Origin: Hymenobacter sp. GOD-10R
GTDB lineage: Bacteria > Bacteroidota > Bacteroidia > Cytophagales > Hymenobacteraceae
Length of the DNA stretch: 64,000 bases
Reading direction: 5' to 3'
Assembly (NCBI RefSeq): GCF_035609205.1
Contig: NZ_CP141184.1
Coordinates: 434,001-498,000, forward strand
Shown: positions 48,112 to 54,274 of the stretch, piece by piece
How positions within the stretch are numbered: the stretch's first letter is position 1
Layout of the letters: every line of letters starts with the position of its first letter
The notes under the pieces: model-generated
Databases searched by the model: none
What the model was told of the DNA's origin: nothing
What the model saw: only the letters and a program-made list of their open reading frames with translations
Position numbers and translations under genes: made by a program

Positions 48112-50316
48112 ATGACTCGCCCTGACCGCTTCTACCTAGTGACTCTGCGTCACCTCATCTGTTTGTCCGTCTTCCTGTTTTGTACTTACAAAACTGTTGC
48201 GCAAAACCCTGACGTTATCTACGCTACAAAGGTAGTAAGTGTAGACGAAAGAAAATGCGGTGTTATCCTGTGCAGTGATGGGTTTGAAAATTCTGCGGCG
48301 TTAGCTACGCTCGATAAGAGTGACTACACCACTTTATATCCATCTGCTGTAGGATCTGCTACTAAGGTAAGAGTACAGCTTGCGAGCATTGTACCAGCTG
48401 GTTCGCGAGCTGGGTTTGTGGTAAGCAACAACAAAGGGCTCATTGACCTCTCCGTGCTGAATGGCTTTATTGTCAGGACGTATGACCTCGGGGGCAGTGG
48501 TAGTTCGGCAGTCAAGCAATATATCAATAATAGCGGACTAGTTCGTGCGCAGGCATTTAGCAGCGATCCAAGCCGTATGGAATTTATTGCCAGTCAACCG
48601 TTCCAGGAAATGGAGATTGAGTTTGCTGGTTTGCTCACGGTTGCTACGCAGTTTCGTCTTTATTACGCTTTTGGATTTCGTGACAACAACTCGACCCTAC
48701 AGTACAAGGGCGTACTGACCAAGATAGCTGCACCGCTTTCTACTGATTACAGTACTCAAAGCCGCAACTCTAGTCTCGTAGAAGCTTGTGTAAACTCAGG
48801 CGTGCTAAATCCGGAAAGAGCCGTTGATAACACGCTGGATAACTATGCTACCTTCGGAAGTTTAGCGGGTGTTACTTGTCCGGCTACTCTGAACACCCGT
48901 TTGGCGAGCCCCGCAGGTGCTAATTATCAGGCCGGATTTGTAGTTGGAAATGGCGGCTTACTAGATCTTAATGTGCTCAAGTCGCTGAAGGTGACAACAT
49001 ACCTCGGCAACGTAGCTCTCGAAAGTTCATTGAGTGGCAACTTGCTAGAAGTCAATGTGCTGCCAGATGGTAAATACCAGATCAGCTTTCCTGCGACCAA
49101 ACCATTCGACCGAGTGGAACTGCAACAAACAGATTTGGTAAAGGCTCTATCAAACTTGAATGTTTATTATGGTTTCGGAATTGAGCAACGGGCTTTCCGC
49201 GACGATACGCCGGTTCTGTCGAATTTTACAGACCCCACTGGGAAGTATGTAGCCCAGAGTAGCAGCGTTCTGTGTGTCAACTGTGACCCAAAAGACGTGA
49301 CCAATCCTAGCCTAGCTGCTGATAACTCGAGCGATAGTTACGCGCAGATCAATTCCTTTCTGAATGTAGGGGGGACGACGAGCTTAAAGCTAAAGTTGAA
49401 CGATCAGTATGCTTCAGGAAAAGCTGGCAACCGTGCAGGTATGGTATTGAACTACGGTGGCGGCTTACTTAATGATGATTTACTAAAGAATATTACCCTA
49501 AAGACATACGCTGGCGCTGACGGTAGCAAGCTGGTTGAAACGGCCAGCGGAGCCTCTTTGCTGGACTTAGGGTTGCTGAATAATGGTAAAAGCGAAGTCT
49601 CCTTTCTGACGACCCAAGATTTTGACTGGGTGGAAATCCAGGTGAGCAACGTTGTCTCGTTAACTGAAAGGACCCGAATCTACCAAGCTTTTGCGGAAGA
49701 CGCTCGTATCGGGTTTCCTACAAACTTGGTAGCACCAGTGGCGCCGCTGCCAGTCGAACTGCTGTCATTCAAAGGCAAAATGGTTGGTTCGGCAGTACAA
49801 CTAACTTGGAAAACAGCTTCGGAGCGCGGCAATGACTATTTTGTAGTAGAACGAGCTACTACAGCTAACGCGACTTTTGGCTCTATCGGGCGAGTGGATG
49901 GAGTTGGTAGCAGTAACAATGAGCAAGCCTATAGCTTTCGCGATACAGAAGTTGCTTCCACAAATACAACGAGCTACTACCGTTTGCGGCAAGTAGATGT
50001 AGATGGCAGAGAAACCCTCTCGCCTGTGGTTGCTATAGTATGGGGAAAAGTACCGGCATCAACCAAAATTGATCTGTATCCTAATCCCGCCACAACGTCT
50101 CAACTCGTGCAGCTACAGTTGCCAGTAGCTCATGAGCAGGGGCAGGTGCTCGTGGTATACAATGCAAACGGGCAATCCATTAAGCAATACCCCGTAGTGG
50201 CGAATGCCTTTACTGTGTCTACTAACAACCTTTCAGCTGGTCTGTACCACATTGTATTGCTGGATGCTGCCGGACAGCACCTAGCTTCTCAGCGACTAAT
50301 GGTAACTGGTAACTAA
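48112..50316 (+). CDS. T9SS-exported surface protein with three repeated beta-sandwich-like domains
   Basis: Protein of 734 aa. Signal peptide ends TVAQN (about residue 31). Three repeats of about 150 residues follow (about 48-200, 215-365, 385-540). Each has a discoidin-like opening (PERAVDNTLDNYATF; PSLAADNSSDSYAQI), a core AGFVV-N-GGLLDLNVL...VTTY, and an end PFDRVEL...VYYGFG. Then comes a linker with LPVELLSFKGKMVGSAVQLTWKTASERGNDYFVVER, frequent before T9SS tails, and a type A sorting domain (IDLYPNPATTSQLV...LSAGLYHIVLLD). Probably a surface adhesin or carbohydrate-binding protein; ligand unknown. Confidence 0.85.
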   Translation: MTRPDRFYLVTLRHLICLSVFLFCTYKTVAQNPDVIYATKVVSVDERKCGVILCSDGFENSAALATLDKSDYTTLYPSAVGSATKVRVQLASIVPAGSRAGFVVSNNKGLIDLSVLNGFIVRTYDLGGSGSSAVKQYINNSGLVRAQAFSSDPSRMEFIASQPFQEMEIEFAGLLTVATQFRLYYAFGFRDNNSTLQYKGVLTKIAAPLSTDYSTQSRNSSLVEACVNSGVLNPERAVDNTLDNYATFGSLAGVTCPATLNTRLASPAGANYQAGFVVGNGGLLDLNVLKSLKVTTYLGNVALESSLSGNLLEVNVLPDGKYQISFPATKPFDRVELQQTDLVKALSNLNVYYGFGIEQRAFRDDTPVLSNFTDPTGKYVAQSSSVLCVNCDPKDVTNPSLAADNSSDSYAQINSFLNVGGTTSLKLKLNDQYASGKAGNRAGMVLNYGGGLLNDDLLKNITLKTYAGADGSKLVETASGASLLDLGLLNNGKSEVSFLTTQDFDWVEIQVSNVVSLTERTRIYQAFAEDARIGFPTNLVAPVAPLPVELLSFKGKMVGSAVQLTWKTASERGNDYFVVERATTANATFGSIGRVDGVGSSNNEQAYSFRDTEVASTNTTSYYRLRQVDVDGRETLSPVVAIVWGKVPASTKIDLYPNPATTSQLVQLQLPVAHEQGQVLVVYNANGQSIKQYPVVANAFTVSTNNLSAGLYHIVLLDAAGQHLASQRLMVTGN

Positions 50317-50465: not shown

Positions 50466-51038
50466 TCAGTGTTCTGCTGCTGGAAGACCTACAGTGCCTT
50501 CTTCTGTCAGAGGAGCGTTGTTCATGTAAGAGCGAAAGCTAAGAGATACCTCACTCGCTAGAGAATTGGCCTGTGCTGTTACCCGGCGGGCATTGTGCGT
50601 TTTCGCATCGTTATGATCTGTGGCAAGTTGAGCAATGTACTCCTCTAAAGGTTTGGTCTCTACGACTTTGCCAGTTGTGGTCACTATCTTAAAATTACCT
50701 ACTTGATAAGCATAGCCTTGTGTCGTAATACGAAAGACGAAATCGAAGTAAACTACCATCGGTTGCTCCTTCCCGCTGGCCGTTACCGGTGTGACCTTGC
50801 TCGTCCCGGTTACACGTACTTCACGTGTGCTTGCATTCGATTTAAAGTCTGTCTTAGGCAGCTTTGTAAACTTATTCTCAGTCCAATCTAGAGCCCGCAG
50901 GTATAAGGCGGCAGCTGTATTATCACTACTTACCTGTTCGGTAGATTCGATGGTTGTTCCTGAATCGCCTTGGGCATGAACCGGAGCAGCTACTGCTAGC
51001 AAACTGCCAAACAAAAATCCTAGTATTACTTTCTTCAT
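50466..51038 (-). CDS. Secreted DUF4468-like protein
   Basis: Protein of 190 aa with a clear signal peptide (cleavage after PVHA, residue 22). The mature part resembles DUF4468 (TBP-like fold) proteins of Bacteroidota: SSDNTAAALYLRALDWTENKFTK, then VRVTGTSKV, VYFDFVFRITTQGYAYQVGNFKIV, and a helical C-terminus. Function unknown. The family call rests on pattern only. Confidence 0.65.
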   Translation of the reverse strand: MKKVILGFLFGSLLAVAAPVHAQGDSGTTIESTEQVSSDNTAAALYLRALDWTENKFTKLPKTDFKSNASTREVRVTGTSKVTPVTASGKEQPMVVYFDFVFRITTQGYAYQVGNFKIVTTTGKVVETKPLEEYIAQLATDHNDAKTHNARRVTAQANSLASEVSLSFRSYMNNAPLTEEGTVGLPAAEH

Positions 51039-51496
51039 GCGCCTGTTGATATGATGCTCGGCTCTGAGCTAAACGAAACAAAACTACTAGCTTGTACTAT
51101 ATTGAATATTGTCAAGTGCGTTATGCTTTTACTAATATGTAGGGGCACTCTCGCCGTAGTGTATGATGAGTGTAGATATGAATTTGAATAGGTTCATAGG
51201 AGAGTTTAACTGTTGCTTATAGAGTATATACAGAAGTTATTTTGTATTATTCCTGTATCTTCTAATTTTGAATACATAACATAAATACGATGCATAGTAG
51301 CTAGGCCACTAAGAAGTATATGAGCTAAACTACTTGGCTACAGAATGTATCCAGCATAGTTGGTTAGTAATCAATAGAATATATTCTGTAAGAGTCGCTT
51401 TTGTCAAGGAGTAGCAACAAATAGGCTGCCAAACCGGATTGATAATTCGGCAATATAAAATTAACGCATCGTGTTACGAAATTGTAAATTAGTTAG
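51039..51496. other. AT-rich 458-bp region without a supported gene
   Basis: Markedly lower GC than the surroundings, with no ORF or clear hairpin. It ends at the promoter of the structured RNA. It may hold the DUF4468-like gene's promoter. Confidence 0.5.
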
Positions 51497-51504
51497 TACC
51501 TTTG
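51497..51504 (+). promoter_or_regulatory. Bacteroidota -7 promoter element (TACCTTTG) for the structured RNA
   Basis: Perfect TAnnTTTG match at the end of an AT-rich stretch, with the first hairpin of the RNA beginning 38 nt later. Transcription would start near 51510. The -33 box is not clear. Confidence 0.6.
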
Positions 51505-51510
51505 TGACGT

Positions 51511-51661
51511 GCTTCAGCTAAACAACAATCATGCGATGAAGCGCGGGACGTTGCGAAAAGCTGTCCTGCGAGAAGACCGGAAGGTCTTTTCCTCCGTTGG
51601 CTCTTCTGTTTTTTCGGCGTTTGTTCCGTTTGCCGCTCCGGTTTCCGTAGCGGTTTTTTTA
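51511..51661 (+). ncRNA. Structured leader or small RNA of unknown class, ending in an intrinsic terminator
   Basis: Three hairpins follow the promoter. Hairpin 1, 51542-51570: cgcgggac / gtcctgcg with one G-U. Hairpin 2, 51570-51591: a nine-pair stem (gagaagacc / ggtcttttc) capped by a GGAA tetraloop. Hairpin 3, 51633-51653: ccgct / agcgg followed by seven Ts, an intrinsic terminator. The region also contains the mini-frame ATGCGATGA (Met-Arg-stop), overlapping a longer frame starting at 51536 that would run through all hairpins to 51715 (59 codons) with no recognisable product. RNA structure seems more persuasive than coding. It does not match SRP RNA, tmRNA, RNase P or known riboswitches that I could recognise. 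Confidence 0.55.
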
Positions 51662-51737
51662 TGTTCAACCGAATCATCTGCGCGAGTTCTTAGTGCTTTC
51701 AATTTTCAGTCATAACCAGTCTAACCCAACCGGTATC

Positions 51738-51827
51738 ATGCAAGAAAACACCACCCTCGCCCAACAAACTTCGGCTGCTGCCCCTGTTGCTGTCCCGTTC
51801 TTGATCAACCGCGAGAACGTTATCTAA
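51738..51827 (+). CDS. 29-residue ORF between two terminators
   Basis: ATG-to-TAA frame: MQENTTLAQQTSAAAPVAVP then FLINRENVI. The upstream sequence (tctaacccaaccggtatc) is like 5' leaders of other genes here. It is Ala/Thr/Gln-rich at first, ends in a hydrophobic-basic stretch and has no cysteine or membrane helix. A terminator follows 14 bp after the stop, so it is an independent unit and not part of the pyrimidine genes. Transcription would come by read-through of the terminator at 51661. No family recognised. Confidence 0.45.
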   Translation: MQENTTLAQQTSAAAPVAVPFLINRENVI

Positions 51828-51840
51828 GCTACTGACTAGT

Positions 51841-51872
51841 AAAGCGCCCGGTGCAAGCCGGGCGCTTTTGCT
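51841..51872 (+). terminator. Intrinsic terminator
   Basis: A perfect 11-bp stem (aaagcgcccgg / ccgggcgcttt) with a 6-nt loop and following T-rich stretch, separating the 29-residue ORF from the dihydroorotate-dehydrogenase-like gene. Confidence 0.9.
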
Positions 51873-51959: not shown

Positions 51960-52811
51960 ATGCAACTGGGAACACGCATTCTACAGAACCCCATCTGCTT
52001 GGCAGCCGCGTCGTGGCAGCTCGATGGGACGGGGTATGAGCAACTCGGCGCCATCTTCACGCGCACCGTTACCATGGAGCCTAAGCCAGGGCTCTATGAA
52101 GAAGGTATTTGGCAAGTAGCCGACCAGACGCTGCTGAACGCCACCAACATGCGCACTGAAAGCGCAGAGATATTGGTAAACGAGTACTTGCCGAATCTGT
52201 GCCGGTACGGTGTACCGGTGTTGGTGAGCATCACGGCGCCCGGCATTCCTGGTTTTCGCAAGATTGCGCGTTTTCTGAAGCGCGAAGCCGGTGACCAGAT
52301 TGCTGGGGTAGAAGTGTATATCACCACCCACGATACAAGCAAAGGCTTCGACCTGAACGCTAAGTTTGTGCGAGAAGCCACGCAGGCCGTGCGTAACGAG
52401 CTAGGCCGCGACGCTGCGGTAGTCGTGAAGCTACCCCCATGGCCAGAGCATATCCGCAGCCTGGCAATCGGTGCGCAGGAGGGCGGCGCTTCGGCACTAG
52501 CCGCTACCAATACGCTGAAAGCCCTACACCTACCTGATGATGCTACGGATGATCTGCTGGTAGGAGGCTTGTCGGGCGAGGCGCTGCGACCCGTGGCACT
52601 GCGTTGTGTGTACGAGCTAGCCCACGATGAACGCGTGACGCTTCCCATTTTTGGGACGGGCGGTATCTTTACGGCGGGTCATGTGACCGATTACCTGCGT
52701 GTCGGTGCTAATGCGGTACAAATTGCCAGCGGCGAGTGGTTAGACCCCGGTTTATCGGCTCGCCTGGCCTCGGAGTGCGCCCACTTGACGCCTAACGCAA
52801 TGAAGTTATAA
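51960..52811 (+). CDS. Dihydroorotate-dehydrogenase-like protein with an altered active site
   Basis: FMN-barrel protein of 283 aa, somewhat short for class 1 DHODH. It keeps QNPICLAAA, FTRTVTMEPKPG, LNATNMRTESAEILVNEYLP, VVVKLPPWPEH, GGLSGEALRPVALRCVYEL and PIFGTGGIFTAGHVTDYLRVGANAVQIAS. The family motif N-x-S-C-P-N at the end of the strand that normally reads VELNISCPN is instead VEVYITTHD, so residues that hold orotate are missing. It heads a run of pyrimidine genes (pyrF, pyrE), which favours a pyrimidine role, but a true pyrD may exist elsewhere in the genome. Confidence 0.75.
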   Translation: MQLGTRILQNPICLAAASWQLDGTGYEQLGAIFTRTVTMEPKPGLYEEGIWQVADQTLLNATNMRTESAEILVNEYLPNLCRYGVPVLVSITAPGIPGFRKIARFLKREAGDQIAGVEVYITTHDTSKGFDLNAKFVREATQAVRNELGRDAAVVVKLPPWPEHIRSLAIGAQEGGASALAATNTLKALHLPDDATDDLLVGGLSGEALRPVALRCVYELAHDERVTLPIFGTGGIFTAGHVTDYLRVGANAVQIASGEWLDPGLSARLASECAHLTPNAMKL

Positions 52812-52905: not shown

Positions 52906-53673
52906 ATGGAAAAACTCATTCAACGCGTTCAACAAGCCGACTCTTTGCTATGTGTGGGCTTGGACCCCATCGGCGCGGATGACCAGGTGCTTGCTCGCCT
53001 GCACGAAGTAATCGACCAGACCGCTCCTTACGCGGCGGCTTTCAAGCCTAACCTAGCTTTTTTTCTGTCGCGACCCGATGGCGTGAACCTACTGCGCATC
53101 GTGGTAGATCGGGTGCCGAACGGCATTCCCGTGATTCTGGACGGTAAGTTCGGCGACATCTCTAACACCGCCGAGCACTATGCCCGCTTCGCCTACGAAG
53201 TAGTGGGGGCTGATGCCGTAACCGTGAATCCTTACATGGGCGATGACGCCATTGTACCGTTTGCCCAGCCGGGTAAGATGGTGTTTGTCTTGGCAAAGAC
53301 TTCTAACAAGCCTACACACTCCTTGCAAGATGTGGCCCTGACGCGCGGTGGCTACCTCAGCGACCTAGCTGCCGGTGTAGTGAAGGAATTGGACGAGCAG
53401 CATCACAATATTGGTCTAGTAGTAGGCGCTACCAACCCCGAGGCGTTGGCCCGTGTGCGCCAAGCTTGCCCTGATCAGTGGTTCCTGGTGCCTGGTATTG
53501 GCGCCCAAGGTGGCGACCTAGCCTCGACGCTCAAAGCCGGGCTGCGCCCGGATGGGTCAGGTCTTCTTATTAATTCATCACGGGCCATTTGGCAGGCGGT
53601 TGATGCCGGTGCCGCCGCTCGTGAACTACAGCAACAAATCAACTCGTATCGTCCCTCCGTTGTCAATGCCTAA
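52906..53673 (+). CDS. pyrF: Orotidine 5'-phosphate decarboxylase
   Basis: Last enzyme of UMP synthesis (255 aa), decarboxylating OMP. The catalytic set lies in VILDGKFGDISNTAEHYA (D-x-K-x-x-D with the second Asp-Ile), preceded by LCVGLDPIG and AAFKPNLAFF; the phosphate loop is FLVPGIGAQGGDL...LLINSSRAI. The length and FKPNxAFF motif are those of the longer type 2 decarboxylases. Its stop overlaps pyrE by 8 nt. Confidence 0.95.
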   Translation: MEKLIQRVQQADSLLCVGLDPIGADDQVLARLHEVIDQTAPYAAAFKPNLAFFLSRPDGVNLLRIVVDRVPNGIPVILDGKFGDISNTAEHYARFAYEVVGADAVTVNPYMGDDAIVPFAQPGKMVFVLAKTSNKPTHSLQDVALTRGGYLSDLAAGVVKELDEQHHNIGLVVGATNPEALARVRQACPDQWFLVPGIGAQGGDLASTLKAGLRPDGSGLLINSSRAIWQAVDAGAAARELQQQINSYRPSVVNA

Positions 53674-54274
53674 TTCTCAAATCGAAGCAAATTCTTTGGA
53701 AAGCCAGCTGGTGCAGGAAGATGCCCTGTTGCGCGGGCATTTTCGCCTTTCCTCCGGTCTGCACTCCGATACCTATGTGCAATGCGCCCGCTTCCTGCGT
53801 CGTCCCGACCTAGCTGCTCCAGCGGCGGCCACATTGGCTGAGCAGATTCGCGAAGCTGGTTTGCAGCCGGATACCGTTGTCGGCCCCGCCATGGGTGGCG
53901 TCGTGATTGGCTACGAGCTAGCTCGGCAGCTCGGCGTGCCCGGCATTTTCACCGAACGCGACGATACGGGGCAGATGACTCTGCGTCGGGGCTTCACGGT
54001 GCAGCCGGGCGAGCGAATTATTATTGCCGAAGACGTGGTGACTACGGGCAAGAGTACCAACGAGGTAGCTCGACTGTTGACCAGCCTCGGGGCAGAAATT
54101 TTGGCCGTCGCAAGTTTAATTGACCGCACGGGTGGGAAAGCTGAGTTAAGTTTTCCGAACTTTGCACTGCTGCCGGTAACGGCGGCCACCTACGCACCCG
54201 ATGATTGCCCGCTGTGTCGGGCAGGTATTCCGGTGGTGAAACCCGGCAGTCGGCCGGAGAAAGCGTTTTCTTAA
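53666..54274 (+). CDS. pyrE: Orotate phosphoribosyltransferase
   Basis: Converts orotate and PRPP to OMP (202 aa). PRPP-binding motif RIIIAEDVVTTGKSTNEVARLL; lysine/arginine-rich loop GIFTERDDTGQMTLRRGF; N-terminal HFRLSSGLHSDTYVQCARFL. The ATG at 53666 overlaps the end of pyrF by 8 nt, so the two are translationally coupled. An in-frame start at 53552 would lie well inside pyrF and is rejected. Confidence 0.95.
   Translation: MPNSQIEANSLESQLVQEDALLRGHFRLSSGLHSDTYVQCARFLRRPDLAAPAAATLAEQIREAGLQPDTVVGPAMGGVVIGYELARQLGVPGIFTERDDTGQMTLRRGFTVQPGERIIIAEDVVTTGKSTNEVARLLTSLGAEILAVASLIDRTGGKAELSFPNFALLPVTAATYAPDDCPLCRAGIPVVKPGSRPEKAFS

Follow-up and report, generated by a model that had tools for sequence, protein, structure and literature searches.

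A leader with an open reading frame and a terminator precedes de novo pyrimidine genes in Hymenobacter

The leader of the pyrBI operon of Escherichia coli has a U-rich tract before its terminator, where RNA polymerase pauses in a UTP-dependent manner. The terminator falls within the 135 bp of the leader gene and is suppressed when translation is coupled to transcription, according to the passages on this operon in two papers (PMC4824070, PMC5021804). Leader-peptide attenuators are also noted in parts of two studies of Flavobacterium psychrophilum and Bacteroides thetaiotaomicron (PMC9723704, PMC7366714).

Here we describe an element in a 64,000-nucleotide stretch of the Hymenobacter sp. GOD-10R genome (the window; NZ_CP141184.1, positions 434,001 to 498,000). 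That it forms the 5′ leader of an operon for de novo pyrimidine synthesis and is an attenuator is well supported, and agrees with the attenuator-type leader proposed in a first-pass annotation of the same DNA. Like pyrBI with its leader gene pyrL, it combines a pyrimidine operon, a leader open reading frame (ORF) that contains an intrinsic terminator, and a U-rich tract 5′ of that terminator; the likeness is one of mechanism, and no kinship to pyrL is claimed. Unlike pyrBI, the Hymenobacter leader is predicted to be leaderless, carries extra covarying hairpins and an amino-acid constraint in its 5′ part, is also found before pyrD, pyrF and pyrE, and is strongly matched in only two genera of one Bacteroidota family. 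It resembles the PyrR-regulated pyr attenuators in the genes concerned, in its place before pyrB and in acting on transcription by attenuation, but PyrR is absent wherever the leader is present, no antiterminator was found and the leader is predicted to be translated. With the Bacteroidota leaders it shares the phylum and the occurrence of short ORFs within structured leader RNAs; the relevant portions of those two papers deal with amino-acid operons or unnamed short ORFs and name no pyrimidine operon leader (PMC9723704, PMC7366714).

The element is probably a pyrBI-like, UTP-sensitive, translation-coupled attenuator that evolved independently, because a frame runs into the terminator, a U-rich tract precedes it, no antiterminator was detected and pyrimidine genes lie downstream. 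In such a mechanism, RNA polymerase would start at the first base of an ATG or GTG codon, and a ribosome would load on the leaderless 5′ end and translate about 40–50 codons. When UTP is plentiful, the polymerase would cross the U-rich tract ahead of the ribosome, the terminator would form and the pyr genes would be off. When UTP is scarce, the polymerase would pause in the tract, and the ribosome would catch up and cover the 5′ arm of the terminator, leading to read-through into the pyr genes. If true, coupled transcription–translation attenuation of pyrimidine genes exists in Bacteroidota, the leader marks genera without PyrR in an apparent swap of regulators, and the phylum offers a natural test both of the closeness of RNA polymerase–ribosome coupling and of leaderless initiation. 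Conservation across the genus at two loci makes the proposal directly testable with reporters.

Anatomy and distribution of the leader

The features of the leader and of the genes that follow it are listed in Table 1. The TAnnTTTG element, the GC-pairing hairpin, the nine-pair hairpin with a GGAA loop and the terminator with seven Ts named in the first-pass annotation are all present where it had placed them. Its description of an unclassified structured RNA with its own promoter and terminator was borne out, as hairpins P1 and P2 covary and the Rfam search that it had proposed returned no known family, leaving a structured RNA of no known class. At gathering scores, Rfam found only a tRNA in the whole window; matches on terminators were below threshold and at chance level (ncS54, 19.8 bits against a gathering score of 43; BjrC68, 24.2 bits against 39). 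That description did not extend to the 5′ hairpin P0, to the GTG placed at the predicted +1 or to the second copy that this genome carries. The leader ORF passes through both the U-rich tract and the terminator. The element is judged real because it is conserved, the single-sequence fold (modestly better than chance, with z −1.93 for 51503–51662 and −2.33 for 51509–51660) and the simple terminator scan of the window (in whose output the leader terminator is absent) being weak by themselves.

Table 1. Coordinates of the leader and downstream features in the window
Feature	Position	Strand	Basis
−7 promoter element TACCTTTG (TAnnTTTG)	51497..51504	+	perfect motif match
Leader element as modelled (covariance model R1 positions 1–156)	51505..51660	+	R1 match 171 bits, genome 485505–485660
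Predicted leader transcript	51509–51660	+	start predicted from promoter element
Leader ORF, 68 codons, GTG start at predicted +1	51509..51715	+	ORF list; frame conserved
Hairpin P0 (51511–51516 with 51537–51542)	51511..51542	+	pairs mostly invariant, hence little covariation evidence
Hairpin P1 (51543–51549 with 51563–51569)	51543..51569	+	covarying
Hairpin P2, nine pairs, GGAA loop	51570..51591	+	covarying
A-poor, U-rich tract 5′ of terminator; candidate RNA polymerase pause region	51592..51631	+	base composition
Intrinsic terminator (attenuator) and T-run	51632..51660	+	hairpin ~51632–51654, seven Ts 51654–51660
29-codon remnant of AsnRS-like/asparagine synthetase A-like gene; ends preserved, central part lost	51738..51827	+	
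Terminator 3′ of remnant gene	51841..51868	+	terminator scan
pyrD-like dihydroorotate dehydrogenase	51960..52811	+	PF01180 80.4 bits; NCBIfam pyrD models below cut-off
pyrF	52906..53673	+	TIGR02127 203.7 bits, cut-off 110.6
pyrE	53669..54274	+	TIGR01367 210.3 bits, cut-off 150.25; start position chosen by author

A blastn search with 51490–51870 gave matches in 99 of 120 congeneric (Hymenobacter) genomes, many of them ending at the T-run. The covariance model R1, built from 30 blastn-found copies, matched 119 of the 120 genomes at E 0.01, with one to four matches per genome and two in the window's own. The sole Hymenobacter genome without a match, a second search included, was G098, a fragmented assembly that is 81% complete. 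In a family sample of 200 genomes, R1 matched 116 Hymenobacter genomes and 8 genomes of the sister genus g5 at 3e-11 or better, and three others only at E 0.0056–0.0065. Among 291 sampled genomes of the order, 36 matches were strong (33 Hymenobacter, 3 sister genus g5) and 4 weak, with no strong match outside Hymenobacter and this one sister genus. The weak matches elsewhere (four order genomes, three family genomes and G151) were treated as chance; three of four alignments inspected rest on the terminator and one on P2, and the ORFs around those in G400, G385, G415, G433 and G151 had no look of pyr genes by eye. Among open-licence papers, none on this leader was found.

In total, 110 copies were compared, comprising 58 at the pyrD-type locus (set A) and 52 at the pyrB locus (set B), the locus of L085 and L106 being uncertain from their short sequence windows. 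The first 30 copies were delimited by means of the promoter motif (for L029, its own position was used), and similarity to these 30 was the criterion for choosing all 110.

RNA fold and reading frame

The consensus structure comprises P0, P1, P2 and the terminator. One P1 pair covaries between G-C and A-U, with both sides changed in 8 of 30 rows, and one P2 pair occurs as U-G, A-U, C-G, U-A and G-U. In the 30 rows of the pyrD-type locus, pairing holds in 98.3% of cells and 18 cells are double-changed against 5.8 in shuffles (0/500 as high), while the number of pairs with double changes, 3, is not above shuffles (250/500); at the pyrB locus (52 rows) the corresponding values are 94.3%, 25 against 12.7 (0/500 as high) and 7 pairs against 4.8 (22/500), the rows being related, so that these shuffle counts are not probabilities. 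Sliding the pairing partners lowers every covariation measure. A conserved antiterminator was sought by duplex energy against shuffles, with an approximate arm position, and rejected: over the 110 copies, upstream pairing with the terminator 5′ arm was no better than chance (mean z −0.15; z below −2 in 8/110).

A riboswitch-like RNA, in which P0–P2 govern termination by binding a pyrimidine nucleotide, would fit a conserved, covarying structure 5′ of a metabolic operon. We nevertheless consider it very unlikely, given the chance-level pairing with the terminator 5′ arm, the predicted translation of the frame and a P1 hairpin whose length and shape differ between the two loci.

The promoter element TAnnTTTG is directly 5′ of model position 1 in 110/110 copies (in 30 of them the motif had set the start) and is followed 4 nt later by ATG (47) or GTG (63) in all 110, a conservation that is partly selected and inflated because the copies were chosen by likeness. 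In a flavobacterium, the motif spans −12 to −5, as given in part of PMC9723704, so that +1 would coincide with the first nucleotide of the ATG/GTG; from this predicted +1 the leader is apparently leaderless. A point against this reading is that few mRNAs of the phylum are leaderless: 5.5% in F. psychrophilum, while about 3.7% in Bacteroides have a 5′ untranslated region under 10 nt, according to published passages. The RTG at 51509 is kept in 110/110 copies, unlike the ATG at 51536, which had earlier been put forward as a possible coding start and is CTG, ACG or ATA in L027, L070, L075, L076, L079, L085, L088 and L136.

In 105 of the 110 copies, the RTG frame enters or crosses the terminator without a stop, remaining open to within 30 nt of the T-run end. 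In L005, L009, L012, L019 and L028, it closes at a TAA or TGA that overlaps an ATG, from which a restarted frame extends to the terminator. The final stop is beyond the T-run in 105 copies and inside the terminator in five (L002, L126, L130, L143 and L144). Over the same stretch, the +1 frame is open in 0/110 copies and the +2 frame in 46/110. Length is off a multiple of three relative to 156 or 177 in 17/110 copies, so that the frame shifts in the tract in some set A copies.

Non-synonymous to synonymous ratios over expectation (N/S) were taken from rows of a single length (B, 48 of 52 at 177 nt; A, 22 of 58 at 156 nt), and consensus peptides and control frames from 48 of 52 rows at 177 nt (B) and 25 of 58 at 156 nt (A); L012 was excluded from the peptide consensus and N/S, and L072, L074 and L076 also from N/S. 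In the 5′ part, N/S is 0.48 for B (48 rows; 5/500 column shuffles as low) and 0.38 for A (22 rows; 1/500), and the control frames give 0.89–2.20. In the U-rich tract, where there are no stops, it is 1.16 (B) and 1.14 (A). By these substitution patterns, the 5′ part is under amino-acid-type constraint, and the U-rich tract is open without it. Two results weigh against a coding reading: at the pyrB locus, N/S over the entire frame is 0.71 (63/500 shuffles as low), and distinct substitutions that create stops are close to expectation, numbering 1 against 3.14 expected in B and 3 against 3.61 in A. The openness of the U-rich tract alone is not above chance (stop-free in 67 and 155 of 500 shuffles), since stops are rare where A is absent. 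Over the 62 nt before the terminator, the 110 copies average 7.7% A and 42.6% U; at least one run of four or more U is present in all 110, and two or more runs in 102.

Covariation and amino-acid-type constraint, which the first-pass annotation had posed as alternatives to be settled by aligning homologues, were thus both found. A coding gene alone was set aside on account of the covarying pairs and single-base indels, and an RNA-only reading on account of the conserved open frame and the amino-acid-type constraint. The idea of a translation-dependent switch is supported; the particular mini-frame from which it had been drawn, ATG-CGA-TGA, is not supported, occurring in only 1 of 30 aligned rows, the window's own.

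Constraint on the peptide could also reflect a ribosome stalled by a run of particular codons or by the emerging peptide (the arginine-rich MKRGT..R..DRKV being one candidate), with an amino acid or another metabolite as the signal. This would account for the constrained 5′ part of the ORF, for several Arg codons in the consensus peptides and for a former coupling to an AsnRS-like gene (see below). It is an unlikely explanation in our view, however: the covarying hairpins in the same part blur the codon test, no single-codon run is kept across copies, and no antiterminator pairing was found that stalling could set free. The pyrBI-like attenuator has a counter-point of its own, in that the 5′ amino-acid constraint and the covarying hairpins exceed the needs of a plain leader of that type. 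The extra constraint may relate to initiation at a structured 5′ end, RNA protection or ribosome timing, or may constitute a sensor in its own right.

Pyrimidine genes, PyrR and the origin of pyrB

In the window, the leader is followed by the 29-codon ORF, the pyrD-like gene, pyrF and pyrE. The second copy in the same genome (2586378–2586554; L061:4079–4255) is 5′ of pyrB–pyrC and then purE, with pyrB at L061:4487–5467. A pyrB motif follows 50 of the 110 copies and a pyrD/pyrF motif 53; seven are uninformative, five with only AsnRS-like motifs and two with nothing, owing to an early end of the sequence window or an unmatched pyrD motif. These calls were made by short motifs, with family models confirming those of the window and L061 only.

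An independent trans-acting small RNA with an incidental neighbourhood, as in the stand-alone small RNA suggested earlier, would likewise possess its own promoter and terminator and could persist where the next gene has decayed. Such a role is highly improbable, however, with a pyrimidine gene 3′ of 103/110 copies (the other seven uninformative) at two unlinked loci, a frame that is predicted to be translated, and mutual exclusion with PyrR.

The leader and PyrR surveys cover the same 200 family genomes, sameness being taken from their handles, and PyrR was surveyed with the NF003549 model. The leader only was present in 124 genomes and PyrR only in 74, and two incomplete assemblies had neither (G203, 87% complete, with a PyrR match below cut-off only; G151, 78% complete). 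None of the 74 genomes with PyrR above the cut-off belongs to Hymenobacter or the sister genus g5. PyrR had no match at E 1e-10 or better in the 124 leader-bearing genomes, and the best match in the window's own genome reached 23 bits against a cut-off of 138. In the pyrB loci of relatives, inspected by eye, pyrR is directly 5′ of pyrB in 9 of 10, with L082 as the exception. On this distribution, the leader and PyrR appear to be mutually exclusive, consistent with an apparent swap of regulators.

A PyrR site was rejected, the pyrR gene being absent. A site for another RNA-binding regulator that substitutes for PyrR and acts on the terminator would match the position before the pyr genes, where relatives keep pyrR, and the leader stretch CC(U/C)GCGAG, which we take to resemble the PyrR-binding consensus. 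We give this little credence, as PyrR is above cut-off in 0/124 leader-bearing genomes, the Rfam PyrR element is absent at the gathering threshold from the window and at E up to 0.5 from 12 loci, and there is no candidate protein.

Among the 80 loci retained, nine from Verrucomicrobiota share 65–82% identity with Hymenobacter PyrB, compared with at most 53% for the other non-Hymenobacter loci. R1, run on 36 of those 80 loci, found all 6 Hymenobacter loci and, among the other 30, only one weak match (L177, E 0.038). No comparable terminator is present in the inspected upstream regions of Verrucomicrobiota pyrB. Judging from these comparisons, pyrB was likely transferred horizontally without the leader.

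A decayed AsnRS-like gene and flanking sequences

The full-length relative of the 29-codon remnant has ~344 residues and belongs with the catalytic domains of AsnRS (PF00152, 123 bits); asnS models give the best matches, these and those to asparagine synthetase A models staying below cut-off, and solved AsnRS structures match. The gene is full length (at least 330 residues) in 14 of 58 pyrD-type loci, at least 1,100 nt of sequence being available for 56. At the pyrB locus, 12 of 52 copies match the gene start between leader and pyrB (E 1e-3), compared with 0 of 52 when shuffled. The leader has outlived the AsnRS-like gene at both loci in many species, that of the window included. Since remnants are present at both loci, leader and gene probably spread together, and regulation of that gene, perhaps in response to a different signal, may have been the leader's original role. 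An asparagine-codon attenuator for the AsnRS-like gene was rejected, as the three consecutive Asn codons of the window peptide are not kept elsewhere (by eye). Across species, internal deletion of the gene has progressed to many different extents, frequently sparing the first and last codons.

A new class of pyrimidine attenuator is conceivable, although we regard it as doubtful. A leaderless, partly constrained peptide and a covarying fold would together form a joint sensor that replaced PyrR in one lineage after the entry of a Verrucomicrobiota-type pyrB, and the element would have moved between loci with the AsnRS-like gene that later decayed.

Several further sequences flank the leader. 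At many loci, an ATG or GTG and then a GC-rich hairpin-like stretch (CCGGCC..GGCCGG) are directly 3′ of the T-run. Many pyrD-type loci (for example, L006 and L016) carry a conserved repeat, GTAACATTTTGGTAACATAAACTTAA, ahead of the leader, in some followed by ATGTTAC; it has an operator-like look and is degenerate in the window, at about 51440–51470. For the upstream repeat GTAACATTTTGGTAACAT, as for GTAACATTTTGGTAACATAAACTTAA, a second site with at most three mismatches was sought in two genomes and none was found, so no regulon can be named for it. Upstream of the leader in the window are genes for a protein with a type IX secretion C-terminal signal (48112–50316; PF18962) and a DUF4468-like protein (50466–51038; below cut-off). 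At the other locus, a strong inverted repeat is located between pyrC and purE (L061:6851–6936) and matches AaHKsRNA41 on both strands with 47.1 bits, below the gathering score of 97.
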